Shown here: in pieces, positions 29,629-46,555 of the stretch
Numbering within the stretch: the first letter of the stretch is position 1
Layout of the letters: every line of letters starts with the position of its first letter
Source: Methanobacteriota archaeon
Lineage (GTDB): Archaea > Undinarchaeota > Undinarchaeia > Undinarchaeales > Undinarchaeaceae
NCBI GenBank assembly: GCA_002687935.1
Contig: NZBN01000008.1
Location: 1-48,036 of the forward strand
Direction of reading: 5' to 3'
DNA: 48,036 nt
Program-made: the position numbers and the translations under genes
Notes under the pieces: generated by a model
Seen by the model: the letters and a program-made list of their open reading frames with translations, nothing else
Told to the model about the DNA's origin: nothing
The model's database searches: none

Positions 29629-30606
29629 ATGTTTGAGGAATATTCCGACGAAATAAAGGAGAAGAAAGCTAAGAGAATAGCGATACAGCTACCCAGCGGA
29701 CTTAAGAGGAAGACACCGGAAATACTTTCAGAACTGAAAACGATTGTTGGTGACGGAGTTGAACTTCTTGTTCTTGGAGATACTGCATACGGAGCCTGCG
29801 ATTTGAGAGATATAGAAGCAGAGAAAATCGGGGCTGACCTTATGATTCATTTTGGACACGCCTCTTTCAGAGTCAAGGAAGCAGTCCCTACAGTCTACGT
29901 TGAATTTTTCTCTGAGCAGGATATAGGACCAATAGTTGAGAAAGCAGCTAAGGAGATTAATGAGAATACGATAGGACTGCTTTCCGTTGTTCAATTTTCA
30001 AAGCAGATTGAAAAGGCCAAGGAAATTCTTGAGAAAACAGGAAAGAAAGTAATAATTGGACAATCGCGATCAAGATCAAAGCACGCTGGGCAGGTACTTG
30101 GATGCGATTTCACAGCAGGAACCAGTATGGAGAAGGATGTTGACTGCTTTTTGTATATAGGAACTGGGAATTTTCATCCAGGAGGCGTTGCAATGGGAAC
30201 TGAGAAAATAGTTTATGTTGCAGACCCTGAGCGGGAAGAGATACGAGATATGAATGAACTTAAAGACAAACTTTTGAGAGTACGATTTGCCAAAATTGAA
30301 GCAGCGAAGAAAGCTAAGCGATTCGGAATTATAGTAAGCCCGAAAGGAGGTCAAAACAGACTCCCTTATGCGAGAAAAATTGCAAGCCTTCTTAAAACTG
30401 CAGGAAAGGAGGCATTCATAGTTGTTGTTGATGAAATAACACCTCACAAACTGGATGAATTTATGTTCGACTATTGGGTATGCACTGCATGCTCCCGTAT
30501 AGCATATGATGATGAAGCAGTGTATAAGAAAATGATAACGCCACAGGAGGCAGAAATAGTTGCCGGAAGCAGAGAGTGGAAGGACTACGTAGTTGACCAC
30601 TTTTAG
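29629..30606 (+). CDS. dph2: diphthamide synthase Dph2 (radical, 3-amino-3-carboxypropyl transferase)
   Basis: Catalyses the first step of diphthamide formation on elongation factor 2, using a 4Fe-4S cluster to generate a 3-amino-3-carboxypropyl radical from SAM. The 325-residue protein has candidate cluster cysteines C57 (YGACDL), C159 (LGCDFTAG) and C285/C288 (WVCTACSRIAYDD), spaced as in the Pyrococcus enzyme. IQLPSGLKRKTPEI opens the first domain. A GAGGT ribosome binding site lies about 9 bases before the ATG. It is divergent from the PAP2 gene with only 26 bases between. Confidence 0.95.
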   Translation: MFEEYSDEIKEKKAKRIAIQLPSGLKRKTPEILSELKTIVGDGVELLVLGDTAYGACDLRDIEAEKIGADLMIHFGHASFRVKEAVPTVYVEFFSEQDIGPIVEKAAKEINENTIGLLSVVQFSKQIEKAKEILEKTGKKVIIGQSRSRSKHAGQVLGCDFTAGTSMEKDVDCFLYIGTGNFHPGGVAMGTEKIVYVADPEREEIRDMNELKDKLLRVRFAKIEAAKKAKRFGIIVSPKGGQNRLPYARKIASLLKTAGKEAFIVVVDEITPHKLDEFMFDYWVCTACSRIAYDDEAVYKKMITPQEAEIVAGSREWKDYVVDHF

Positions 30607-32716: not shown

Positions 32717-33463
32717 ATGGCATTTAAATTTATATTAGACGAACCGGACCTTTTGAAAGAGTGCGTAATAGCCGCATCAAGTATGCTCAATGAGGCACTT
32801 CTTTCAGTCGACAGTAATGGAGTCAGCCTTGTGAGTATGGACTCAGCAAATGTTGCTCTTGTAGAATTTAATATTCTTGCAGGAGCATTCAGAGAACTGG
32901 AAGCTTCTGAAAAAACTGGATTTGGTGTCAATATGACAGACCTTGTTTCTGTAATGCGAAGAATAAAATCTACAGAAAGTCTTGAAATGTCTATGAATGA
33001 CGGCATGCTATCTATGAAGATATTTGGAAATGCAAAAAGAGCCTTTCAGATACCTCTGATAGATGTGAAGAAAGAGACTAAAATCCCGCAGCTGGACTTT
33101 CCTGCAAGTATTGAGATAAAGGCCAGCTTCCTTGAGGACGGAATAAGCGATGCAGAAATAATTTCAGATGCAGTTATACTGGAAGCCGACCCTGACTCAT
33201 TCACAATCCGCTCGAGAGGAGATAACAGAACTGCCGAACTCAAGATGCAGAAAGGGGAAGACGGAATAGTTAGTTTGGAGGCAAAGGACCACGTTAAATC
33301 AACCTTCTCCCTGGATTATTTAAAGAAAATGATAAAAGCATCAAAGATATCTGATGTTGCCAGTGTAAGAATTGGAAATGATTATCCTCTGAGAATGACC
33401 TTCACAGTAATAGACAAAGCCCATATAGGATTTGTTCTTGCTCCAAGAATAGAGAATGACTGA
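32717..33463 (+). CDS. pcn: PCNA sliding clamp
   Basis: Trimeric DNA clamp giving processivity to polymerases and recruiting PIP-box proteins. The 248 residues match the two-domain clamp: FKFILDEPDLLKECVIAASS at the start, SVDSNGVSLVSMDSANVALV, an interdomain connector near 120-130, and the C-terminal DYPLRMTFTV followed by VLAPRIEND. Length is typical (about 245-250). It begins a stretch of replication genes. Confidence 0.96.
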   Translation: MAFKFILDEPDLLKECVIAASSMLNEALLSVDSNGVSLVSMDSANVALVEFNILAGAFRELEASEKTGFGVNMTDLVSVMRRIKSTESLEMSMNDGMLSMKIFGNAKRAFQIPLIDVKKETKIPQLDFPASIEIKASFLEDGISDAEIISDAVILEADPDSFTIRSRGDNRTAELKMQKGEDGIVSLEAKDHVKSTFSLDYLKKMIKASKISDVASVRIGNDYPLRMTFTVIDKAHIGFVLAPRIEND

Positions 33464-33531: not shown

Positions 33532-34386
33532 ATGAGTAAAAAAAAAGATTTTAGTTTCTATTACAGTATAGCGCTTTTATCACTGCTCGCTCTAATTATT
33601 TTTATGCAACCGCAGGCAGGAGAAACAATTCCTGACCTTGATGAAGTTACAAGTGTGGAAGGTGTGATTGTTAACGGGGAAGCAGTTCAGGAAATTGAAA
33701 TTCAGGAAGAACTTGTTGAGATTGTAAAATTCGAAGGAACTTTACAGGAAACAACCTGTAATATTGATGCAGGATGGCCTGCGCATTGCCCGATAAAAAA
33801 AGGAAGTAGAGAATTTAGAACCTGTTGGATTGAATCAACAAGTGGAAGTTCTGACCTTTTCGCAAATATAGGATGCGGGGCGATGACCATTCACGCAGAA
33901 TTTAAGCAGATGGCATCAATGGCAACATCAAGAGAAGCCCGGCTTGTTCTTCTGCCCGGACCAAATATAACAGCAAGATATCTTCTGTCTCTTGATATGA
34001 GAATAAACGGTCTTCCGACAACGGAAGCCGACGACCAAGGTCTTGTTATTAATGTTGAGGAAGTGCAGAATCATAGAAAAATTGTGATAAGTGTTTCTGA
34101 GGGGAAAATATGTGTGAGAGAATCCGCTGAGGAATGTGTAGAGAGTTCTGAAGTTATAGAAGCAACACAACCCGGGAGAAATAAGTGGGAAATTGTAGGA
34201 GAAGATTCTGACCTAAGAATATATGTTGATAACTCATTGATTGCAGAGTTCTCGGAACTTACACTTCTGTCCTACCAGCAAAGTGGAAACCTGCTGTCAA
34301 TATATGCCAGGCTGAATCCGGACGATATGAGTGGGAGCGTCTTGGATGTTGAAATTAGAGAGGCTGAATTTTACAATATAATATAA
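33532..34386 (+). CDS. membrane-anchored extracellular protein, possible laminin-G/concanavalin-like fold
   Basis: A 284-residue protein with an N-terminal membrane helix (about 10-28) and an outside domain. Four cysteines occur between about 80 and 125 (TTCNIDAGWPAHC, TCWIE, IGCGAM) and two more near 185-205, likely disulphides. The second half has a beta-sandwich pattern including WEIVGEDSDLRIYVDNSLI, reminiscent of laminin-G-type sugar-binding domains. No family certain. It interrupts the replication gene run between PCNA and FBPase and has its own promoter. Confidence 0.65.
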   Translation: MSKKKDFSFYYSIALLSLLALIIFMQPQAGETIPDLDEVTSVEGVIVNGEAVQEIEIQEELVEIVKFEGTLQETTCNIDAGWPAHCPIKKGSREFRTCWIESTSGSSDLFANIGCGAMTIHAEFKQMASMATSREARLVLLPGPNITARYLLSLDMRINGLPTTEADDQGLVINVEEVQNHRKIVISVSEGKICVRESAEECVESSEVIEATQPGRNKWEIVGEDSDLRIYVDNSLIAEFSELTLLSYQQSGNLLSIYARLNPDDMSGSVLDVEIREAEFYNII

Positions 34387-34468: not shown

Positions 34469-35569
34469 ATGGTAGAAAAAACAACACTTTCAGTAATAAA
34501 GGCAGATGTAGGAAGCGTCCCAGGGCATGTAGTAGCACCGCCGGAACTTTTGGAAGAATGTGAAACCATTCTCAATAAAGGACTTTCAGAGAACACAATA
34601 AATGATTTTTATATAACACGGTGCGGAGACGATATTCAGTTAATAATGACGCACTTTAATGGAGAAGATAACAAAGATGTTCATAAACTTGCATATGATG
34701 CCTTTGTATCTGCAACAAACAAAGCAAAGGAAATGAAACTTTATGGTGCAGGACAGGACCTTCTGAAAGACACTTTCTCAGGAAATGTTAAGGGAATGGG
34801 ACCTGGTGTTGCTGAGATGGAATTTGAGGAAAGACCTTCTGACCCCGTAATAGTTTTCGCAGCAGACAAGACAGACCCCGGAGCTTTCAGCCTTCCATTC
34901 TACAGGATGTTTGCAGACCCTTTCTGCACACCCGGACTAACAATTGACCCGACACTCCAGGACGGATTCAGTTTTGAAATTCACGACATTAAAGAAAGTA
35001 GGAAAATAACGCTAGACGCTCCTGAAGATACCTACAAACTTCTCGCATTTATAGGCTCAACCGGAAGATACCTCATAAAGAGAGTATACAGGCGCTCAGA
35101 CGGAGAAATTGCAGCTGCGCTTTCCACTGAAAAATTGGCACATATAGCCGGAAAATATGTAGGCAAGGATGACCCAGTTGCGATAGTTCGCTGCCAGTCA
35201 GGTTTTCCAAGCGTTGGAGAAGCTCTTGAGCCATTTGCCTTCCCGCACCTTGTTTCAGGTTGGATGAGGGGCTCGCACAGAGGTCCTTTTATGCCGGTTT
35301 CGCAAGAAGACGCGAGAAATTCCAGACTTGACGGACCTCCACGAGTAATAGCTCTCGGATTCCAGATAAATAAAGGAACACTAGTAGGACCAGAAGACCT
35401 GTTCAATGATATAGCATATGACAGAACACGTGAAAAGGCACATGAAGTTGCAGATTATATGAGAGGACACGGTCCATTTGAACCGCACAGACTTGGAGAA
35501 GAGGAAATGGAATACACAAGCCTTCCGAAAATCCTTAAATCACTGGAATCTAAGTTTAAGAAGATTTAA
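34469..35569 (+). CDS. fbp: bifunctional fructose-1,6-bisphosphate aldolase/phosphatase (type V)
   Basis: Joins triose phosphates and dephosphorylates the product to fructose 6-phosphate, the ancestral-type gluconeogenic enzyme of archaea. The 366 residues are standard for the family. Diagnostic segments are TLSVIKADVGSVPGH at the N-terminus, YGAGQDLLKDTFSGNVKGMG, ADKTDPGAFSLPFYRMF, and HRGPFMPV with RLDGPPRV. With eno and ppsA it implies sugar synthesis from pyruvate. It lies 30 bases before the primase gene. Confidence 0.96.
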   Translation: MVEKTTLSVIKADVGSVPGHVVAPPELLEECETILNKGLSENTINDFYITRCGDDIQLIMTHFNGEDNKDVHKLAYDAFVSATNKAKEMKLYGAGQDLLKDTFSGNVKGMGPGVAEMEFEERPSDPVIVFAADKTDPGAFSLPFYRMFADPFCTPGLTIDPTLQDGFSFEIHDIKESRKITLDAPEDTYKLLAFIGSTGRYLIKRVYRRSDGEIAAALSTEKLAHIAGKYVGKDDPVAIVRCQSGFPSVGEALEPFAFPHLVSGWMRGSHRGPFMPVSQEDARNSRLDGPPRVIALGFQINKGTLVGPEDLFNDIAYDRTREKAHEVADYMRGHGPFEPHRLGEEEMEYTSLPKILKSLESKFKKI

Positions 35570-35599: not shown

Positions 35600-36853
35600 A
35601 TGTATAAAGAGGCTATCGAGAGTTATTATTCCAGGACGAATGTCCAGAGAGCTATACTGGGAGTTTCAGAGAACAGAGAACTTATACCTGTTCTTTCAAC
35701 AGGATCATTTGGAAGCAGGCCTAATGCCGTCTATTATGAAAAAGATGTAGAACAGATGGTAAAGGGCGGAGCAATAGACTTCCACTGCTCAGTTGAACGC
35801 TGGAAGGACCCTTTGAAGCTCAAAACAGGGATGAGAAAGGAAGACCAGGACGCTTTGAGAATTGGATGGGACCTTATTATAGATATAGACTGCAAGAAAA
35901 CACTGGAAGAGGCCAAAACTGCCTGTATAATACTTCTTGACAGAATTGAAGAACTGAATATACGCAACTATGGCGTTAAATTTTCAGGTAATCGGGGTTT
36001 CCATATTGTAGTTCCCTTTGAAGCATTTCCTACAGAAGTTATGGGAATGGGAGAAATTGCAAAAAATTATCCCGGACTTCCAAGAAAAATGATACAATAT
36101 CTTGCAGACAGCACTTTTGATACGATGTATGAAGCATTTGGAGAAAATCCGAATGATGTTCTTGAAATAGACCATGGAGTTATAAGCCCCAGACATCTTT
36201 TCAGAGCTCCATATGCCCTGAACAGAAAAACCTGGCTCGCAAGCATACCTCTTGATAAAAAGGAAATCAAGAACTTTGACCCTCAAAGTGCACAGCCTTC
36301 AAAAGTAAAGGTGAAAAAGAAATTTCTCAAGGAAGTTGATGAAAATGAGGCAATTGAACTGCTCAGGTCTGCCGCGTATTGGACCTCAAAGCGGGAAAAG
36401 GCCACTGAGAAAAAAACTATTGCGTTTGAAGTTCCAAAGGACGCAATTCCTGTAAAGTTTTTCCCAAGTTGTATACAGAAAATAATGGAAGGACTAGATG
36501 ACGGAAGAAAAAGGAGTGTTTTCATATTGGTTTCCTTCCTTCACAGAATAGGTTGGGAAAGGCAGGATGTTTGGACCTTCTTGGTAGATTGGAATAAGAA
36601 AAATAAGCCTCCTCTGGCAGATACCCTTCTAAAATCGAGTTTCACGAGCCAGTATACAGGAGAAGGACCTAAGATGTCACCAAATTGTAGCAATCCGGGC
36701 TATTATGGAGGCTTTGGAGACAGCACATGCGACCACAGGAATCCTGTGTCATATACTCTGGGAAGAGTAAAGGCAATAAAAAGAAAAAAACCCAGAAGGC
36801 GTAGGGCAAAGACTAAAAAGGAGACCAAACAAGAGAAGGGAGTGGGAGAATGA
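35600..36853 (+). CDS. priS: DNA primase: PriS catalytic domain fused to a PriL-like C-terminal domain
   Basis: Makes RNA/DNA primers for replication. Residues 1-225 are PriS: SFGSRPNAVYYE near the start, catalytic D95 and D97 in IIDIDCKK, SGNRGFH at 129-135, and a late DHGVISPRHLFRAPY. PriS alone is about 330-350 residues; here 417. From about 285 the sequence follows the PriL iron-sulphur domain: VKFFPSCIQKIMEGL (C291), a helical region with LHRIGW, PNCSNPG (C363), and STCDHRNPVSY (C377). Three of the usual four cluster cysteines are visible. Fused primases are known in Nanoarchaeum and related archaea. A basic tail ends the protein, overlapping the GINS gene. Confidence 0.92.
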   Translation: MYKEAIESYYSRTNVQRAILGVSENRELIPVLSTGSFGSRPNAVYYEKDVEQMVKGGAIDFHCSVERWKDPLKLKTGMRKEDQDALRIGWDLIIDIDCKKTLEEAKTACIILLDRIEELNIRNYGVKFSGNRGFHIVVPFEAFPTEVMGMGEIAKNYPGLPRKMIQYLADSTFDTMYEAFGENPNDVLEIDHGVISPRHLFRAPYALNRKTWLASIPLDKKEIKNFDPQSAQPSKVKVKKKFLKEVDENEAIELLRSAAYWTSKREKATEKKTIAFEVPKDAIPVKFFPSCIQKIMEGLDDGRKRSVFILVSFLHRIGWERQDVWTFLVDWNKKNKPPLADTLLKSSFTSQYTGEGPKMSPNCSNPGYYGGFGDSTCDHRNPVSYTLGRVKAIKRKKPRRRRAKTKKETKQEKGVGE

Positions 36854-37425
36854 CAGAAGTAATAACATACGAGACACTTCGAGAAATACAAAGAGACGAG
36901 AAAAGGTCTTCAAAGCTTTACTCTCTGGGCAAGAATTTCTATTCTGTTGTTCAGGACTACCTTGGACGAGAACTTCCAGAAGACGATATATCAAGAAATG
37001 AGATATTGAATGCTCGAAAAATACTTGAAGATATACACGATAGGAGAGAGAAGAAGATAATAAATTACGCACTTGCAATAGCAAGAAATAATGAGAAGCT
37101 TGATGTGCCTGAAATGACGCCAGAGGAACATTTGCTTCTCGAAAAGCTTGTAGAAACGCTTAAAAAGTACCGGGGTAACATAGATAACACTTCACCTTCA
37201 GAAGCAAAAGAAGTGCCAGAAACTGAAGTGGTGTCTGCTGAAGAAAAAGAAGATTTAGAAGACAGCGAAACAAAGCTTGTGCAAGTAAAACTTCTCGAGG
37301 AGCTGCCACAGATTGTAGGAGCAGATATGGAAGAATACGGTCCATATTCAGAAGGAGAAGTCGCAGAAATTCCGGAAGAAAACGCAAAAATACTGATTGA
37401 AAATAAAAAGGCAGAAGAAAAATGA
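36850..37425 (+). CDS. gins51: GINS complex subunit (Gins51 type)
   Basis: GINS joins MCM and a Cdc45/GAN-type protein in the archaeal replicative helicase. The 191-residue protein has the Sld5/Gins51 order: an N-terminal helical A domain (ETLREIQRDEKRSSKLYSL, FYSVVQDYLG, NARKILEDIHDRREKKI), an acidic linker (about 115-140), and a small beta B domain at the C-terminus (GADMEEYGPYSEGEVAEIP). It overlaps the primase stop as ATGA, a common PriS-GINS pairing in archaea. Confidence 0.9.
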   Translation: MTEVITYETLREIQRDEKRSSKLYSLGKNFYSVVQDYLGRELPEDDISRNEILNARKILEDIHDRREKKIINYALAIARNNEKLDVPEMTPEEHLLLEKLVETLKKYRGNIDNTSPSEAKEVPETEVVSAEEKEDLEDSETKLVQVKLLEELPQIVGADMEEYGPYSEGEVAEIPEENAKILIENKKAEEK

Positions 37426-37700
37426 ATATACCAAAAACATTGAATATGTATTGTGCATGGTGCAAGAAGCACAACGCACACGGAGTATTCGTTTCAAAAA
37501 AGAGACAGAAGAGAGCACTTTCCATAGGACAGAGAAGGTTTAAGAGAAAGATGGAAGGTTACGGCTCATTCCCCAAGCCAATGCCACAGGGAAAGAAGCC
37601 AACACAAAGGCAGGATCTCAGATTTAAGTGCGGAGAATGCAATAAGGCAAACACTCGGGCAAAAATGCCAAGAGTAAAGAAATTCGCTCTGACTGACTAA
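37422..37700 (+). CDS. rpl44e: large ribosomal subunit protein eL42 (L44e)
   Basis: A zinc-binding 50S protein near the E site. The 92-residue protein has zinc cysteines C11, C14, C70 and C73, with a basic middle (KRQKRALSIGQRRFKRK) and the end RAKMPRVKKFAL typical of the family. The start overlaps the GINS stop as ATGA. In most archaea S27e and aIF2-alpha follow directly; here a membrane protein gene comes next and S27e is not present. Confidence 0.93.
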   Translation: MNIPKTLNMYCAWCKKHNAHGVFVSKKRQKRALSIGQRRFKRKMEGYGSFPKPMPQGKKPTQRQDLRFKCGECNKANTRAKMPRVKKFALTD

Positions 37701-37707
37701 TAAGCAC

Positions 37708-38409
37708 ATGTCGTTGCCAATTTTAGAAATAATCCGATGGAAGAGACTTTACTATTTTAGCCTGTCTGCATTCATTCTTTCAGCTATATTTTTCAAAATT
37801 AATCCCCTCATATCAGCAATTCTTATGTTTTCTATGTTGTCGTGGTGGACTCTTCTTCCAGGAAGAATTTCCCCATATCTTATGGAAATAAATATAGGGG
37901 ATTTTTTCACAGTTATGGTTGCTCTGAATATTGGAGTTGTGGAAGGTGTCATATTCGGCTTTCTAAATATATGGGCCGGACCAATATTTGGAAGGGCTGA
38001 AAGACTGCAATTGACCAGCAGGATATCGATTGTAGCAATTCTTGCAACACTCTTAGTTCCGACAATATACAGCTTTACAAATCAGAGTGTTCTTTATACA
38101 CTCTACGGATATTCAATAGCATTTTACACAATACACCTTACCTCGAGTCTTATGATTTCTCTAAGGGCTTTCCTCAATGTAATGAAATTTTCATTAATAG
38201 CAGTTCCAATGGCATTTATCACCAACAGAGCCTATTTTTCAGTATTTGGAAATTCTTCTACTCACTTTGCCGGAATTGAAATAGGAAGTGAGATGATGTG
38301 GGTAAGTGGTGCACTTCTTACATTTTTCACTATTATGAATTTCCGCGAATTCCTAGCACAAAAAGCCAATATAGGTGGCTCAATCATAAAGAGCGAGAAA
38401 CATATATAG
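37708..38409 (+). CDS. polytopic membrane protein, unknown function
   Basis: A 233-residue protein with about six hydrophobic helices and few charged loops. The third region carries NIGDFFTVMVALNIGVVEGVI and a GRAERLQLTSR loop. The helix with paired glycines and the N-terminus are loosely like ECF-type S components or other small transporters, but I cannot assign a family. It sits where S27e is usually found, 7 bases after L44e, and is followed by aIF2-alpha. Confidence 0.65.
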   Translation: MSLPILEIIRWKRLYYFSLSAFILSAIFFKINPLISAILMFSMLSWWTLLPGRISPYLMEINIGDFFTVMVALNIGVVEGVIFGFLNIWAGPIFGRAERLQLTSRISIVAILATLLVPTIYSFTNQSVLYTLYGYSIAFYTIHLTSSLMISLRAFLNVMKFSLIAVPMAFITNRAYFSVFGNSSTHFAGIEIGSEMMWVSGALLTFFTIMNFREFLAQKANIGGSIIKSEKHI

Positions 38410-38430: not shown

Positions 38431-39219
38431 ATGGCAACAGAAAAGAGAGCTCAAAAATTCCCTGAAGAAGGGGAATTTGCAATGGGAATTGTATCAAAGA
38501 TTTTCCCCTACGGTGTTTTTGTTAAGCTGACAGACTATAACGGAGTTGAGGGAATGGTACACGTTTCTGAGGTCTCCAATAAATGGGTCAAGAACATAAA
38601 GGACCACGTTAAGGATAAGCAGGTAATTGTTGTAAAGGTTTTGAGGGTCAGCACAGGAAAGGGACATGTTGATTTGTCAATAAAGTCTGTAAAGGACGTT
38701 CACAGAAAAAAGATTCTTGATTCTCATAAGAGAAAGCAGAGAGTTGAAAAACTTCTGGCTATATCTGAAAAAGAAATAAAAAAAGAGAGTGCAGCAGATG
38801 TAATGGAGGCTCTTGAAGATGGTTACAAAGAAGCTTACTCTGCTCTTGAAGCAATACTTTCTGACGGAGGAGAAGCTTTGGAAGGTATTAAACTTTCAGA
38901 TGAATGGAAGAAGGAACTTGTAAAACTTTCGAATGATAATATTGAACTGCCGGTAGTCTCAATAAAAGCTATTCTTAAGCTTGAGAGTGAAGACGGAAAA
39001 GGTGTGGAAACAATAAAATCGGCTGTTAAGAAAGCTCGGAAAGCGAATGATGATAAGGAAGTTAATCTTGAACTGAAATATAAGGGAGCTCCGCACTATT
39101 CAATAAGACTGACAGGTCCCGATTACAAAAAAATTGAAAAGATTATGGAGAAAGTATCATCTGCCGCAATAGATGAAATGAAGGGAAATGGCGGGAGTGG
39201 ACAGCTTATTAGGGAATAA
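38431..39219 (+). CDS. eif2a: translation initiation factor aIF2, alpha subunit
   Basis: One of three aIF2 subunits that bring initiator tRNA to the ribosome. The 262 residues match the family: an S1 domain (about 12-85) with FAMGIVSKIFPYGVFVKL, then MVHVSEVSNKWVKNIKDHV, a helical domain, and a C-terminal alpha/beta domain that binds the gamma subunit. An AGGAAAAGG-type ribosome binding site and a TATATA element lie just upstream. Its stop overlaps the nop10 start. Confidence 0.95.
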   Translation: MATEKRAQKFPEEGEFAMGIVSKIFPYGVFVKLTDYNGVEGMVHVSEVSNKWVKNIKDHVKDKQVIVVKVLRVSTGKGHVDLSIKSVKDVHRKKILDSHKRKQRVEKLLAISEKEIKKESAADVMEALEDGYKEAYSALEAILSDGGEALEGIKLSDEWKKELVKLSNDNIELPVVSIKAILKLESEDGKGVETIKSAVKKARKANDDKEVNLELKYKGAPHYSIRLTGPDYKKIEKIMEKVSSAAIDEMKGNGGSGQLIRE

Positions 39220-40166: not shown

Positions 40167-41123
40167 TTAATTTGTAAGCTGAGCCCTGCAAGTTGTTATT
40201 TCTTCTGAAGAACCATATATTCCGAACTTGCCTTTGAGTTGTTCTGTAACGCGATAGCCGTAATTAGATACGACGCTGATTGTACAGAAGTCCTTGACGA
40301 AATTTATATTCCCAGTATAATTAAGTAAAAGTGTTTTTATGAGGTCCTGCTTGCCGAAGCGGAGCTGTAGCTCAGCATCAGAATATGTGAGTTCTTTGTT
40401 ATTTTCTTCAGTAAAGTTACAAGGACCTGACAAAGTCAGCATAGTCTCATTCATATAGCCAGAGCCTTTGTATCCGGCGAGGCCGTCTCCTGTGTTTTTA
40501 ATTTTTAGGCGGATGCTGAAGCTCGTTGCATTTTCAGAAATAATTAAGGGTTGATTTCTTAGAGACTCTATCTCTATCTGGACCGGACCTGCGCTCGGGA
40601 AATTCTCTCCAGTTCCGCTTGTCTGACCGCCGAGACGCTCTGCTTCCTGTTGAGACATTAGAAGAATTGATGCCCATCCCTCTGATTTGTACATGTAACT
40701 GATAGATGCAGCAACTATGCTTTCACGTGGATCGCAACCTGCCTGCATATCCCACTGGACTGAGTATGCATCTCCCTCGCTGCAGATTGAGAGGTCAGGA
40801 GGATAGAGAGTAGGAACCGCTTTGAACTGTTGAGTGTCGCCTCCGATTCCGAAACCAGGATGACTCCATAAGTCTGCCTGGATATCCGTCGCCTCATAAT
40901 TTCCGCCGTTCTGGAGGTCCATAGAAAGACGTACAGAACCGCCGACAGGAACGTCTTCGTAACCAGGAGAGAAGCTCAGTATTTTTATGGCGTCTGTCTG
41001 TGAAACAACGACTGGGCATTCCTTTGCTTTGCCCTTGCATCCGCTGACGGAAACTGCAAGGAGAATAACAAGTACAACTAGAGCGAATTTTCCGAAGCCT
41101 GTTTTTTGTCTTATCTTAGTCAT
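40167..41123 (-). CDS. CARDB-like surface lipoprotein, paralogue 1 of the array
   Basis: A 318-residue secreted lipoprotein: signal helix about 10-28 with lipobox VSGC and lipidated C29. Domain 1 (about 45-160) has ILSFSPGYEDVPVGGSVRLS and LQNGGNYEATDIQADLW, the beta-strand pattern of CARDB-like domains. Domain 2 (about 180-318) has GPVQIEIESLRNQPLI and IKNTGDGLAGY. The end reads NYGYRVTEQLKGKFGIYG, the equivalent of the YTY strand in the other members. Further cysteines near 124-133 and 233 and in the C-terminus may form disulphides. It closes the operon, 2 bases after paralogue 2. Confidence 0.8.
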   Translation of the reverse strand: MTKIRQKTGFGKFALVVLVILLAVSVSGCKGKAKECPVVVSQTDAIKILSFSPGYEDVPVGGSVRLSMDLQNGGNYEATDIQADLWSHPGFGIGGDTQQFKAVPTLYPPDLSICSEGDAYSVQWDMQAGCDPRESIVAASISYMYKSEGWASILLMSQQEAERLGGQTSGTGENFPSAGPVQIEIESLRNQPLIISENATSFSIRLKIKNTGDGLAGYKGSGYMNETMLTLSGPCNFTEENNKELTYSDAELQLRFGKQDLIKTLLLNYTGNINFVKDFCTISVVSNYGYRVTEQLKGKFGIYGSSEEITTCRAQLTN

Positions 41124-41125
41124 TT

Positions 41126-42160
41126 TTATCTTGAAGGTGCGTAGCTTACTCTTGCATTGGCGTCAATCATATATGTGTATTCTACTGAAGCCTCGAAAGC
41201 TGTGGCATCCTGAATTATGTTACTGGCTGTTGATTTTACTGTGAACATAATGTCGTAGCTCCTCCACTGTTTGGTGCTTCCGATGATTTTTAGTTTCATT
41301 GGGTCAGTTTGTCCTGTTATAACAAGAGTGTCTCCATCCCTTAAAAACTCAAAGTCATTTTCACTATCTTGAGTCTGAGTCTGTCCTTGACCTTGTCCTT
41401 GAGTCTGTTCCTCTTCCTCTGTCTCCGGTGGAATGGTTGAAGGAGGCTCAAGAACAGCAGGATCAAATTTCAGCCTTATTTCTTTGAAAGAGTTGTCTTC
41501 AAGAGAACCTCCACCACTATTCTTAACATTCACTGCAACAGAAACTGTTTGCGTAGTATTAGGCTGGAGAATAATTGGAGTTTTCGGAGCGACTATTTCA
41601 AGGCTTATTGGAGCAGGTGAGCTGTAAGAGTTCAGAACATATCCGGTTATCTGACCACCTTTCTGGAGCCAATTGTCGTAAGAGGATAGTAGAGCTTCCT
41701 GTGTTCCTGTGGTGCTGTAATCGTACATTACTCTGAGTCCGAAGTCCTGACCAGTTGTTGCCTTTGGAAGGCTCGTTGGAGCCAGTAAGATAAGCTCTTT
41801 TTCAACTATATCTCCAGGGATTCCCTTGTCGCGATTAGGTCTCTCTAATCGGTCTATTCCATTCGGAACAAATTCACTGTTGCAGGTAAAATTAGAAACA
41901 TCCAATGGTGTAGCAGCTCCGCAGTTGAAAAGTATGAATTTTAGATTCGTCGCATCAAAGTTTCCATTGTTCTGTGCCGCTGAATAGAAGGTTATCGGGT
42001 CGCCGGGATTAACTGTTGAAACAATGGGATAGAAGGAAGTAATTGAAACTCCAGGATAGGAAACCTCTGTCGGAGTTTCTTTATCGTCCACCCCAATCTG
42101 AGTTCCTGTGCATCCTGATACAAGGACTACGAGTGCTATTAGGAGAATTGTGTTTTTCAT
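41126..42160 (-). CDS. CARDB-like surface lipoprotein, paralogue 2, with Gln/Glu-rich loop
   Basis: A 344-residue lipoprotein with lipobox VSGC at C17. Domain 1: YPGVSITSFYPIVSTVNPGD and AQNNGNFDATNLKFILF. Domain 2: SPAPISLEIVAPKTPIIL and VKNSGGGSLEDNSFKEIRL. It ends VEYTYMIDANARVSYAPSR. It is closest to paralogue 3 (shared YDYST, NW and LNSYS segments), suggesting recent duplication. In place of that protein's calcium repeats it carries an inserted Glu/Gln/Thr-rich loop at about 243-270 in a different position. It overlaps paralogue 3 by 4 bases. Confidence 0.8.
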   Translation of the reverse strand: MKNTILLIALVVLVSGCTGTQIGVDDKETPTEVSYPGVSITSFYPIVSTVNPGDPITFYSAAQNNGNFDATNLKFILFNCGAATPLDVSNFTCNSEFVPNGIDRLERPNRDKGIPGDIVEKELILLAPTSLPKATTGQDFGLRVMYDYSTTGTQEALLSSYDNWLQKGGQITGYVLNSYSSPAPISLEIVAPKTPIILQPNTTQTVSVAVNVKNSGGGSLEDNSFKEIRLKFDPAVLEPPSTIPPETEEEEQTQGQGQGQTQTQDSENDFEFLRDGDTLVITGQTDPMKLKIIGSTKQWRSYDIMFTVKSTASNIIQDATAFEASVEYTYMIDANARVSYAPSR

Positions 42161-43350
42161 TCCTCAATTACGACAGTGGCCTGCCCCTCCTCTATATATG
42201 TATAGTCGGCTTCGGCGCTGAAGCTTATAACCTCTTGTATGATTGCTTCAACAGATTGTGAAGGATTGTATATGTTGGTATTTGGATTTCCGTCTGAAGC
42301 CTCTACTAAGTCAGCTATTCCATCACCATCATCGTCGTCATCTTCATTATCATCCACTCCATCATTATCATAATCAGTTGGGGACGAGTCCATTGCATCA
42401 GGAGTTCCATCACTGTCATCGTCAGGATCTAAATCGTCAGGAATACCATCCCCATCATTATCATTTTCAGACTGGGCAGTTAATTGTGTTTGTTGTTCCG
42501 ACTCAGTGGGTGCTTCAGTTGGAGTTTTTATCTTAAAAATTGCCTTATAGGAATTCCACTGATTGGCTAAACCAATAAGCTGAAGCTTACTTGAATCACT
42601 GACAGTAAGCATATTATCGCTTGCTAGTGATTGTGTGAAGTCTCCAGAATACAGCGAAAGCAATGAAGTATCATAATAGAGTCTGACTTCCCCCAACTCA
42701 CTGCCATTCACTATACCATTTCCTGAGTTTCTTATAATAACCGCAATAGTGATAAACTTGTCCTCATTTGAATCGGCAGGAAGAATAACAGGCTCCGAAG
42801 GAACATTTATTTCTATACTCATTGGAGCATCAGTGCTGTAGGAGTTCAAAGTCCCGACATCAATCTGCTGATTGCTGGCCTTCCAGTTTTCGAAGGAACT
42901 CAGAACTACGTCAGCACCGGCTGATGTGCTGTAATCGTATCTGACGCGGGAAAGGAAGGTGTGTGAAACTTTTCCTCCGATTATATTGTCAGGTGCTGTC
43001 AGTCTGAACTGAGTCTCAGTTATCTCGCCGGGAACATTGAGCTCCAAATCCGGTTTTGAGAGTTTAGCTTCCAAGTCAGAGTACTCATCGCATTCCCAAG
43101 TCGCATCATTAGATTCTTCCGAAGTTCCACAACCGAAGAGCATTACATCAACATCTATTGCATCGAAATGTCCTGTGTTCTGAACCTGGAGAAGCAGGTC
43201 TATCTCGCCGCCTTCCATAACTGTTGATGAAAGTGGATAAAATTCTGTTATTGAAACGCCGGGGTACCCTAATAGGTCTGAGACCTCAGGACTTGCTGTA
43301 CAGCCTGTTACGAGAACTGCCACTGCTATTAGGAAAATTGTCTTTTTCAT
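42157..43350 (-). CDS. CARDB-like surface lipoprotein, paralogue 3, with TSP3-type calcium repeats
   Basis: A 397-residue lipoprotein with lipobox VTGC at C17. Domain 1 (about 28-140): YPGVSITEFYPLSSTVMEGG and VQNTGHFDAIDVDVMLFGCG. Domain 2 starts near 174: APMSIEINVPSEPVILPADS and IIRNSGNGIVNGSELGEVRL. Residues 296-356 are Asp/Asn/Gly-rich repeats of the thrombospondin type 3 kind (DNDGDGIPDDLDPDDDSDG, DYDNDGVDDNEDDDDDGDG), which normally bind calcium. They are inserted between the strand IFKIKTP and the final EADYTYIEEGQATVVIEE. It overlaps both neighbours by 4 bases. Confidence 0.85.
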   Translation of the reverse strand: MKKTIFLIAVAVLVTGCTASPEVSDLLGYPGVSITEFYPLSSTVMEGGEIDLLLQVQNTGHFDAIDVDVMLFGCGTSEESNDATWECDEYSDLEAKLSKPDLELNVPGEITETQFRLTAPDNIIGGKVSHTFLSRVRYDYSTSAGADVVLSSFENWKASNQQIDVGTLNSYSTDAPMSIEINVPSEPVILPADSNEDKFITIAVIIRNSGNGIVNGSELGEVRLYYDTSLLSLYSGDFTQSLASDNMLTVSDSSKLQLIGLANQWNSYKAIFKIKTPTEAPTESEQQTQLTAQSENDNDGDGIPDDLDPDDDSDGTPDAMDSSPTDYDNDGVDDNEDDDDDGDGIADLVEASDGNPNTNIYNPSQSVEAIIQEVISFSAEADYTYIEEGQATVVIEE

Positions 43351-44252
43351 TCTTTCACCAATATATTGACTGGATCTGTGTCCATTATATATGTATAATC
43401 TCCAAGGACCTCAATTGTATAGGAAGTGATGTCCTCGAGATAGTCCAGGCTGAGATCGCACTTAACACTACGCTCCTGTGTTTTTCCGAAAAGTGATACC
43501 TCGCCATTACTAACATCGTCAGAACAGCTGGTCGTTACATCATTTCTGACTGGTCCTCGCACAATATAGACCACAAAATTCTGTATATCACCGCTGACTG
43601 AACCGGAGCCTGTATTTCTTATTACGATATTTAGGCTCACATCAACGCTCTCGGGAGAAGATGAAACTTTTATAGGAGGGACATCGTAAATTGCGAAACT
43701 GACAGGAGCAGAGGAGGTTGTACTCTGTATAGAGAAAGCTCCTGGACCCTGTTCATTGTAAATGTCTCGGGAAACGAGATGAATATTTGAGGTTGCCAGA
43801 GAGCTATAATCATAACTTATCCTTGCTTTCAAAGACTTCTGCTGATTTACTGAAACGCTTGGGGCAGTCATTACCCAGTAGCTATAGAGGCGTTCTCCGG
43901 ACTGTTCAAATTCCAGGTCAGGCGCAAGCAAAGAAGTAGCAGAAACAGAATTTTCGCTCACTGTTGAGAAACCGCTCTTTTGGAAAAGATTGACAACAAT
44001 ATTTTCTGCGTCGTGGGCACCGACATTCTCAACATCAAGACCAAGCTCAACCTCGTCGCCAGAGTCAACGCTTGACTGTGAAGGACTAAAATCCCTTATG
44101 ATGATTCCGTAAGTCAGGGAAGTTCCGAAACCAGCCGAACTTATTTCTGCTTCCTCAGTAGGTAGTGGAAACTTATCAACTATATCTGCACAGCCAGATA
44201 TAGATAGGGCAAGAGAAATAATGAGAATTGTAAGTAAAAGCTTAGATTTCAT
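43347..44252 (-). CDS. CARDB-like surface lipoprotein, paralogue 4
   Basis: A 301-residue lipoprotein with lipobox ISGC at C21. Domain 1: GIIIRDFSPSQSSVDSGDEV and VENVGAHDAENIVVNLF. Then ISYDYSSLATSNIHLVSRD. Domain 2: APVSFAIYDVPPIKVSSSPE and IVIRNTGSGSVSGDIQNFVV. The end is LGDYTYIMDTDPVNILVKE. A TATA element about 29 bases upstream suggests it starts its own transcription unit with paralogues 3-1, in addition to any read-through from upstream members. Confidence 0.8.
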   Translation of the reverse strand: MKSKLLLTILIISLALSISGCADIVDKFPLPTEEAEISSAGFGTSLTYGIIIRDFSPSQSSVDSGDEVELGLDVENVGAHDAENIVVNLFQKSGFSTVSENSVSATSLLAPDLEFEQSGERLYSYWVMTAPSVSVNQQKSLKARISYDYSSLATSNIHLVSRDIYNEQGPGAFSIQSTTSSAPVSFAIYDVPPIKVSSSPESVDVSLNIVIRNTGSGSVSGDIQNFVVYIVRGPVRNDVTTSCSDDVSNGEVSLFGKTQERSVKCDLSLDYLEDITSYTIEVLGDYTYIMDTDPVNILVKE

Positions 44253-44274
44253 CCTTAATGAGTAGGGATAAGGA

Positions 44275-44288
44275 GTTTATATTTATTT
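44275..44288 (-). promoter_or_regulatory. TATA box before paralogue 4
   Basis: The minus strand reads AAAAATAAATATAAAC, centred about 29 bases before the ATG at 44252, in the only sizeable gap inside the lower half of the array. Confidence 0.4.
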
Positions 44289-45179
44289 TTAGTCCGATTT
44301 TAGGACCATCAGACTTTCAATAGGAGAGAGGAGTTTGTAGTGGTACTCTGCTGTTACCTGAACCTGACAGGATGTTGAAACGCTATCATCCGCAATATTA
44401 TATGTAGCCTCAAAACTCTTTCTTCCTTCTTTACCCTGTATGAGTTTTACACCACTTACATTCTGTGTAAAATCTGTGCAACCAGGACCAAGACCTCGTA
44501 CGGTGATGTCGTCAATACATCCAAAGGCCTCTGTGCAGTCTCCTTTTTTGTTGCTAGAACTTATTGTATCAAGACTTTCAACCTTTCCTGTGCCTTCATT
44601 GACAAATATTACTGTGAAACGGACTGGAATATCACCTGTTCCTCTGACCTGAACAGGTTGATTTGCTACTATATCTATGAAAATGGGAGAATGGCTACTA
44701 CTGGATGCATCTGGATATGCTGAAGTGCCGATTTCTCTTAAAACATCACGAGGAACAAAGTGAACAGTAGATACTCCACTTGATTCATAATCATAGGAAA
44801 TTTCTGCCTGAACTTCCTCCAATCTGTTCTGAAGCACATTTGGTGCCTGGAGCTCCCAGAAAAAGGCATCGCTGGCATATGTATCGCCGAGAGGTATTCC
44901 GAGATCAGAGCCATCTATCTCTGTGGCGGTAGTGTTTGTAAATGAACCTGATCTGATGAGCTTAGCCTTTACGTTAGATGCTGTGAAATCACCTCTGTTT
45001 TCGGCGACAAGTGTAATGCTGGCGGACTCTCCGGAATAGACATCACCAAAATCAGACTGGAAACTTCTCACAGCTATGCCATCGCCTGAAGGAGGGGCTT
45101 CTGTGTCCTTTCCGGCACAAGCAGATATAGAAACTACTAAGAGAAGTAATATTAAAAATAAAACTCTGGGGTGTTTCAT
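44289..45179 (-). CDS. CARDB-like surface lipoprotein, paralogue 5
   Basis: A 296-residue lipoprotein with lipobox ISAC at C21. Domain 1: GIAVRSFQSDFGDVYSGES and AENRGDFTASNVKAKLIRSG. Then ISYDYESSGVSTVHFVPRD. Domain 2: SPIFIDIVANQPVQVRGTG and FVNEGTGKVESLD. The end has VTAEYHYKLLSPIESLMVL. Cysteines occur in a KGDCTEAFGCIDDITV stretch and nearby, likely disulphides. No inserts, so it is probably close to the minimal form of the family. Confidence 0.8.
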   Translation of the reverse strand: MKHPRVLFLILLLLVVSISACAGKDTEAPPSGDGIAVRSFQSDFGDVYSGESASITLVAENRGDFTASNVKAKLIRSGSFTNTTATEIDGSDLGIPLGDTYASDAFFWELQAPNVLQNRLEEVQAEISYDYESSGVSTVHFVPRDVLREIGTSAYPDASSSSHSPIFIDIVANQPVQVRGTGDIPVRFTVIFVNEGTGKVESLDTISSSNKKGDCTEAFGCIDDITVRGLGPGCTDFTQNVSGVKLIQGKEGRKSFEATYNIADDSVSTSCQVQVTAEYHYKLLSPIESLMVLKSD

Positions 45180-45199
45180 AGCAATTGACTATCTACTCT

Positions 45200-46555
45200 T
45201 TACTGTAGCTCGACTGAGTTGACATTTCTGTCAGTAGCTGTCTCTCCGAGATAATTTGCGGTTCCTCTGAGAGTTATGTGGTCAGATGTAGTTCCAGTTG
45301 GTGCTGTAACTATTACAGACCATACACCGTTTGAATAGCTGTTTCCACTTGCTGAAACTGGAACATTTAGCTCAGTAGAACCGTTGATAAGAGTGAAATT
45401 CAGATAACTTGCACTTGTTACATCAAAGGACGGGTTTGTATCTGTTACAAGCTCTCCTTGGTATGCTAGAGTGAATGTTATTGTTTCGCTTCCTGAGGAT
45501 GTCCAAGTTCCCTGTGAAGTGGTTGATGGGTCAGTAATCTCGAGAGCGAGTGCGCCTTCAGAAGTTCCTATGATATCGAGACTTGTGGAAACTGACTGTA
45601 CATAGGTGTAAGAAACCTCAGATTCTATTGCAAATGTATTGTAGCCATTGACCCTGTCAGAGTAGGACTGCAAATGGCACTGAACAGTTCTTGTGTATCC
45701 ACCTTCTGTAAGGCGGAGTTTGTTCTGCTTTGCTGAGCTTGAGCTTGAATCTATTAAAAGGACTTTTACACCGTCAAGGCTGTTTGAAGTCCTTAGGTCA
45801 AAGTCGCACTTGGACTCGTCAACTGTCAAACCTGAAGGAATGCTAAGCCTTATAGAGGAAACTCTGTCCCTCTCACCTGTAGCGTCGTAGACAGTTCCAC
45901 TTCCGTCGTTATATACTGTAACTCTTAGTATGAAATCATCCTCTGATCCAGACATTCTTACATATGGTGCTGGTGCTTCCATTGCAATACCTACTGGACC
46001 ATTCCTGGCTTCCTGGGTAGGTGATGCTGGAACTCTCTCCCCACGAGCCTCTAGCTCTGTAAGATGTGATGCTTCCGCGATTACGACTTTTTGTGATACT
46101 ATACTCTTTGTGTCATATCTGACAGCTGCTGTTAGTGAAATTTCTCTGTCAGGAGATGTTGCTGAAACGTATGGAGCTGTTACATCCCACTCAATGTTAC
46201 CAACTCCACCTGCAAGACCTTCATCAGTATTTGGTCTCTCAAGTGTGCCGGGGCTCAGTGAAGTGTAAGTTCCGAGTGCTGTTCCGCTGATGCCATCATA
46301 TCCCTGAAGTCTTACTTCAACATTTTCAGCATTGACAGGTCCTGTATTCTCGGCCTCAACTGAGATAAGGAATGCTTCATTGGAGTCAAACAAGTCTCTT
46401 CCTTCTGTATCTATAGAAAGTACGAGTGAATCTGCGCCTGCAGTTCCGACAGCAGCTCCGGTGTCTCCGCCTGTACAGCCGGTAATAAGAAGCGTAGCTG
46501 AAAGAACAACAAGTGTTAGAAAGAATTTGTTATATATTGTGTTCGACTTTTTCAT
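45200..46555 (-). CDS. CARDB-like surface lipoprotein, paralogue 6, with extra C-terminal beta domain
   Basis: A 451-residue lipoprotein with lipobox ITGC at C27. Domain 1: ADSLVLSIDTEGRDLFDSNE and VEAENTGPVNAENVEVRLQG. Domain 2: GPVGIAMEAPAPYVRMSGSE, YNDGSGTVYDATG, then SEVSYTYVQSVSTSLDIIG. Unlike the others, about 118 more residues follow (333-451), Ser/Thr-rich with strand-like repeats (SGSETITFTLAYQGEL, NGVWSVIVTAPTGTTSD), probably an immunoglobulin-like domain. A TATA box lies about 28 bases upstream. Confidence 0.8.
   Translation of the reverse strand: MKKSNTIYNKFFLTLVVLSATLLITGCTGGDTGAAVGTAGADSLVLSIDTEGRDLFDSNEAFLISVEAENTGPVNAENVEVRLQGYDGISGTALGTYTSLSPGTLERPNTDEGLAGGVGNIEWDVTAPYVSATSPDREISLTAAVRYDTKSIVSQKVVIAEASHLTELEARGERVPASPTQEARNGPVGIAMEAPAPYVRMSGSEDDFILRVTVYNDGSGTVYDATGERDRVSSIRLSIPSGLTVDESKCDFDLRTSNSLDGVKVLLIDSSSSSAKQNKLRLTEGGYTRTVQCHLQSYSDRVNGYNTFAIESEVSYTYVQSVSTSLDIIGTSEGALALEITDPSTTSQGTWTSSGSETITFTLAYQGELVTDTNPSFDVTSASYLNFTLINGSTELNVPVSASGNSYSNGVWSVIVTAPTGTTSDHITLRGTANYLGETATDRNVNSVELQ

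Follow-up and report, generated by a model that had tools for sequence, protein, structure and literature searches.

A single-chain primase with a reduced iron-sulphur site in a marine Undinarchaeales archaeon, and apparent repeated loss of cluster cysteines among fused archaeal primases

Introduction

Can a cell prime its chromosome without the iron-sulphur cluster of its primase? Most archaea have a primase built from two proteins, and whether its cluster is essential has long been debated, with a redox-switch function and a purely structural one in dispute since 2017. Evidence on this role has so far come from engineered or mutant enzymes. The question is raised anew by a gene in a 48,036-nucleotide stretch of DNA (hereafter the window; contig NZBN01000008.1, positions 1 to 48,036, assembly GCA_002687935.1) from a marine Undinarchaeales archaeon. 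A first-pass annotation, made from the sequence without database searches, had read this gene as a fused primase that serves its lineage as a one-protein enzyme and lacks one of the cysteines of the cluster.

The fusion is real, although not new: according to passages of Dombrowski et al. 2020 (PMC7414124), a PriS-PriL fusion is common to all Undinarchaeota and DPANN Cluster 2, and the lineage and single-gene architecture described there, and earlier for Nanoarchaeum equitans, match those of the window primase. On the cluster cysteines, their state and their repeated loss, the passages reporting the fusion say nothing, and it is the loss that gives the gene its wider interest.

Methods

Genomes from six groups at phylum level, together with the lone genome G019, were searched with the window protein or with a family profile, and 237 of them, mostly draft assemblies, were read for their cysteine state. 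The latter was defined as the first (C1) and second (C2) cluster cysteines plus at most two cysteines in the loop ahead of a conserved NP; two genomes were assigned to the four-cysteine class by hand, on account of an alignment shift (G142) and a split open reading frame (G258). The primase tree, a quick tree in which G019 forms a long branch, was built without the cysteine columns. For comparison with PriX we used a profile that was built chiefly from cysteine-poor members and covers the N-terminal half of the C-terminal domain.

Results and Discussion

A single-chain primase in a replication gene cluster

The gene (35600..36853, +) starts with ATG and encodes 417 amino acids, in which a PriS catalytic domain is joined to a PriL-type C-terminal domain (CTD) in one reading frame. 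Both parts matched Pfam models over the cut-off, DNA_primase_S (PF01896) at residues 98-218 (E 1.7e-7) and, with the full protein as query, DNA_primase_lrg (PF04104) at residues 241-341 (E 1.4e-5); NCBIfam models of PriL and PriS gave weak matches in a domain order agreeing with that of Pfam. The fused architecture proposed by the first-pass annotation was thereby borne out, as were the positions of its motifs: D95, D97, SGNRGFH (129-135), FFPSC (C291), LHRIGW, PNC (C363) and STCDHRNPVSY (C377, H379).

In the PriS-type catalytic part (approximately residues 1-235; 35600..36304, +), D95, D97 and S129-H135 are invariant columns of the family alignment A1, while D191 is by its position the probable third acidic catalytic residue. 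With D191 so assigned, the window primase has the catalytic signature of the AEP superfamily (DxD, SGxxGxH and a third acidic residue). Reading the sequence by eye, we found no zinc-binding Cys motif of the PriS kind between D97 and S129, which is not decisive, because the active PolpTN2 of the Thermococcus plasmid pTN2, likewise a single chain with PriS-like and PriL-like domains, has no zinc motif either (PMC3973330). PolpTN2 differs from the window primase in being plasmid-borne, in its length of 923 aa and in having all four cysteines, and it is light brown when purified (PMC3973330).

The PriL-type CTD spans approximately residues 284-388 (36449..36763, +). A profile of 12 related proteins matched the solved PriL 9f26_B with an E-value of 2.5e-7, and its four cysteine columns aligned with FPPC, PPNC, LC and C of that structure; together with PF04104, this establishes the homology of the domain to the PriL CTD. 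Among 40 CTDs of the family, 30 matched PF04104, seven PriCT_1 and one PriX. With the PriL CTD of archaea and eukaryotes (PMC2852410; PDB 9f26) the domain shares the order FPxC, PNC, loop and NP, the PF04104 family and presumably the helical core, but it is without the third cysteine, and a PriL N-terminal domain was not recognisable in the window primase. AlphaFold models, based on a shallow alignment of the window protein and two relatives, had mean pLDDT of 34 (whole primase) and 44 (residues 239-397), and a fold search with the low-confidence model of residues 239-397 returned no fold match.

The host genome comprises 666,542 bases in 11 contigs and is 86.6% complete; within it, no second priS or priL was detected, the sole matches to PF04104 and PF01896 being this gene, although at such completeness a separate priL could still lie in the missing remainder. 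A fused-type primase gene was present in all six Undinarchaeota genomes examined, in one of which (G005) a contig end leaves the first 129 residues only. These findings support the earlier reading of a one-protein primase. The nearest public records belong to archaeon UBA55 and Candidatus Undinarchaeales SRR5007147.bin71.

The surroundings of the gene are those of the canonical archaeal replication gene cluster, in which PCNA, PriS and Gins15 are described across archaea together with L44E and aIF2-alpha (PMC2643942). Upstream are PCNA (32717..33463, +; PF00705/PF02747) and FBPase (34469..35569, +). Downstream, the start of Gins51 (36850..37425, +; PF22090, E 3.3e-21) overlaps the primase stop codon (ATGA), ribosomal protein L44e (37422..37700, +; PF00935) overlaps Gins51 in turn, and aIF2-alpha (38431..39219, +; PF07541) follows. 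The seven PriCT_1 matches among the 40 CTDs could be taken to mean that the protein is a PrimPol of a mobile element with a PriCT-like tail rather than a replicative primase. We regard this as very improbable: the gene is the only PriS/PriL of its genome, sits within the core replication cluster and has a fused-type counterpart in every genome of the phylum, and no relative was found among viral contigs.

It should be added that a 284-aa protein whose N-terminal stretch is hydrophobic (33532-34386, +) is encoded between PCNA and FBPase, and a hydrophobic 233-aa protein (37708-38409, +) between L44e and aIF2-alpha, both without a Pfam match. Further along, 40167-46555 (-) holds a series of adjacent genes encoding proteins that resemble secreted lipoproteins and one another, each with a hydrophobic N-terminus with Cys; the two tested had no Pfam match.

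Three cysteines and a candidate histidine ligand at the cluster site

The window primase keeps three of the four PriL-type cluster cysteines. C291 (FFPSC; 36470..36472, +) and C363 (PNC; 36686..36688, +) occupy the first and second cysteine columns of alignment A1, each with the codons TGT/TGC/TGC in three species of the genus. Between C363 and the remaining loop cysteine, residues 364-376 (SNPGYYGGFGDST; 36689..36727, +) form a shortened loop with a four-residue gap at the third column (C3) relative to the sister families, so that the third cysteine is deleted. The loop is followed by C377-D-H379 (36728..36736, +), comprising the last cysteine and a candidate substitute ligand, H379, whose codons are CAC/CAT/CAC. 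In alignment, the window sequence SPNCSNPGYYGGFG----DSTCDH-RNPV stands against APNCDNLGYYKDFGICTPDEFCQKIKNPV of the sister families; all four cluster cysteines are present in G003 and G004, the two sister families (50-52% identical), G004 reading PNCDNLGYYKDFGICTPDEFCQKIKNPV. Overall, the ligand-bearing loop is four to five residues shorter than in these families.

Three species of the window genus (PNCSNPGYYGGFG----DSTCDH-RNPV) lack the third cysteine through a common in-frame shortening; it is identical in the two further species and in two public contigs, and this rules out an assembly slip or artefact as the cause. The single missing cysteine of the first-pass annotation is therefore confirmed. 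C377 might also be viewed as a displaced C3, which is disfavoured since, counted from the invariant NP, its spacing (4 versus 5 residues) fits C4 better; no other result depends on this assignment.

How far is the site still in use? At silent sites the window species has diverged from the other two by a dS of about 0.9-2.6 where computable, and C291, C363 and H379 have been retained through silent codon changes. C377 and H379 are constant across the three species, in contrast to the variable residues 374-376 and 378. The CTD is under purifying selection, with omega of about 0.04 in one deep pair, the sole pair computable. Low omega, and residues kept despite changing codons and neighbours, argue for the continued function of the CTD, C291, C363, C377 and H379; the three conserved cysteines could nevertheless be kept for other reasons, the species being 86-88% identical.

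Most likely, and in keeping with the Suf genes of its genome, the window primase would still bind metal, as a His-ligated Fe-S cluster or as zinc, in a structural and not a redox role. An ordinary [4Fe-4S] cluster that works just as that of four-cysteine enzymes does, with the three cysteines as ligands and a distant or non-protein ligand in the fourth place, appears unlikely to us. Three-cysteine [4Fe-4S] sites do occur in other enzymes, and the window genome has Suf genes; against this, the shorter ligand loop changes the geometry of the site, and nothing points to a substrate that an open iron site might bind. In its favour is also that the window encodes a Dph2-type diphthamide synthesis protein (29629-30606, +; PF01866), a member of an Fe-S enzyme family, so that the organism still encodes other Fe-S proteins.

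Apparent repeated loss of cysteines across fused primases

Among the 237 genomes, four cluster cysteines were counted in 185, three in 12, two in six, one in two and none in 32. On the tree, the label of four versus fewer cysteines changes 17 times (13 forced by the starred branches) and the zero-cysteine label eight times (seven forced). The changes are read as losses because canonical PriL has four cysteines, and on this reading of the sequences the cluster cysteines of fused primases are lost many times over the tree. Lineages without any of them include f21/f34/f35/f36, f93, f65/G209, f67/G214, f37/G139, f48/G140 and G019, the first four families belonging to an apparently halophilic phylum whose f33 member retains four. 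We found no open-access paper describing such repeated loss, although an earlier description is possible.

In proteins with partial loss, alterations fall most often on the third cysteine column. In the 32 zero-cysteine proteins, C2 is always replaced by an aromatic residue (Y in 21, F in 10, W in one), as if to fill a cavity, and C1 by T, P or S. The frequent change at the third column, the aromatic C2 and the fact that these 32 proteins keep the domain give some weight to the view that the metal site of the window primase is already dead, i.e. that loss of the third cysteine abolished the cluster, packing alone holds the CTD and the three cysteines are remnants awaiting complete loss. We consider this possible, but not the favoured reading, as C2 of the window genus is still a cysteine and not an aromatic residue, and as neither C377 nor H379 has been lost amid the turnover of neighbouring loop residues and silent codon drift.

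Retention of a Cys3-His metal site, which we prefer, is also consistent with the distribution of histidines. H379 as a substitute ligand was originally a guess and is still a candidate only, but it has gained comparative support: a loop histidine occurs in 11 of 12 three-cysteine proteins, versus 28 of 185 (15%) with four cysteines and five of 32 with none (Fisher p 5e-8, relatedness ignored). By lineage, it is found in about four of five, and independent pairs, too few to reach significance, stand at 2.7 to 0 (sign test p 0.25); the apparent association with the three-cysteine state rests on about five lineages.

Other arrangements with histidine were seen as well. Two distant lineages, L121, L122 and L124 (phylum of G023) on the one side and L188 (G155) on the other, have in common a C-H-x-C pattern in which C1 and C4 are kept, C2 is exchanged for His and C3 is lost. 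In L154, L162, L175 and L178 of family f37, His stands exactly in the column of the fourth cysteine (YCGxxxHxxIKNP) and makes this a candidate Cys3-His site.

As to the cause of loss, want of assembly genes was rejected, since SufB/D are encoded by the window genome and by most of the altered lineages that were tested, and are missing from several four-cysteine lineages. Exposure to oxygen might instead drive lineages of oxic waters to drop or modify a solvent-exposed, oxygen-labile cluster, and for the archaeal primase cluster partial exposure to solvent and a lower stability in air are indeed assumed (PMC2852410). Superoxide dismutase (SOD) is encoded by three of three genomes of the marine window genus and by neither of the two four-cysteine sister families; over the selected genomes, it is commoner with altered sites (21/35 versus 13/44), the raw p-values being 0.011 for SOD and 0.022 for Suf. 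Both associations are gone with independent pairs (for SOD, median p 0.69 with relatedness allowed for; 4.6 pairs for and 2.3 against), and several zero-cysteine genomes are without SOD. The oxygen explanation is accordingly a hypothesis only, and in our opinion a rather doubtful one.

A PriX-like initiation motif retained throughout

Contrary to the cysteines, one motif of the CTD persists. D301-G-R-K-R305 (36500..36514, +) is the counterpart, in a weak profile alignment (E 0.2-0.3), of D70-S-R72-K-R74 in PriX, the site of the initiating NTP; the aligned stretch is LQDSRKR in the PriX structures 4wyh and 5of3 (chain C), and two of 14 members of the N-terminal-half set matched PF18689. Mutants of PriX D70, R72 and R74, which bind the initiating NTP, have initiation abolished or severely impaired and extension spared (PMC5700102). 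The motif, in the form D/E-G-R/K-K/N-R, is present in essentially all surveyed fused primases and in every cysteine-state class, and as DGRKR in 32 of 32 zero-cysteine proteins (first CTD copy), whereas solved archaeal PriL sequences read otherwise at this place. Its retention where cysteines were lost points to stricter constraint on the initiation site than on the cluster ligands.

PriX of Saccharolobus solfataricus is a close parallel, being a PriL-CTD-like domain with a D-x-R-K-R initiation site that works without an Fe-S cluster (PMC5700102). It differs in being a separate third subunit, itself devoid of a cluster, beside an Fe-S-bearing PriL, while the window domain is fused to PriS and has three cysteines.

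Proposed mechanism and implications

Taken together, it is likely that the window gene encodes the single-chain replicative primase of its cell, one that combines a PriX-like initiation site with a degenerate cluster site, the latter probably still a Cys3-His metal site. In such an enzyme the PriS part (D95, D97, D191 and SGNRGFH) would join nucleotides and carry out elongation, and the CTD would bind, on D301, R303 and R305 (the counterparts of PriX D70, R72 and R74), the first NTP, which becomes the primer's 5' end, and present it at the PriS site when the first dinucleotide is made. The covalent tether between CTD and PriS may replace docking by way of the N-terminal domain of PriL. Related enzymes staple the end of the CTD to its helical core with a [4Fe-4S] cluster held by four cysteines; in yeast, the smaller C-terminal part supplies two of these four ligands (PMC2852410). 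In the window primase, with its shortened loop, this site is reduced to C291, C363, C377 and probably H379. An Fe-S-free chimeric primase showed normal DNA priming in vitro (PMC5700102), and a Sulfolobus strain carrying such a chimera grows (PMC12019639).

For fused primases of Undinarchaeota and DPANN Cluster 2 at large, we lean towards the view that the Fe-S site has been repeatedly dismantled, by exchange of one Cys for His, as in the window genus and others, or by full removal with an aromatic C2, and that the PriX-like site is always kept. If so, chromosomal priming in living lineages needs no cluster, and a role as redox switch is not universal. Natural chromosomal primases with stepwise loss (four cysteines, three plus His, two, none) and close relatives with four offer matched pairs for this question; the window primase, at 417 aa in one chain, is one intermediate and small enough for simple biochemistry.

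Some additional matches deserve mention. Second, or only weaker, PriS-like matches were noted in certain DPANN genomes (G162:C3:12122-12595, G165:C53:8-400, G122:C33:11120-11593 and G236:C3:236361-236810) and are perhaps additional AEP proteins. Furthermore, a fused-type primase of the lone genome (L054, G019:C2:4384-5733; part of the adjoining sequence is masked) has two tandem PriL-type CTDs nearly without cluster cysteines, the four positions reading T, F, Y, T in the first copy and T, L, C, T in the second, where the DGRKR motif is lost as well (VEPER).
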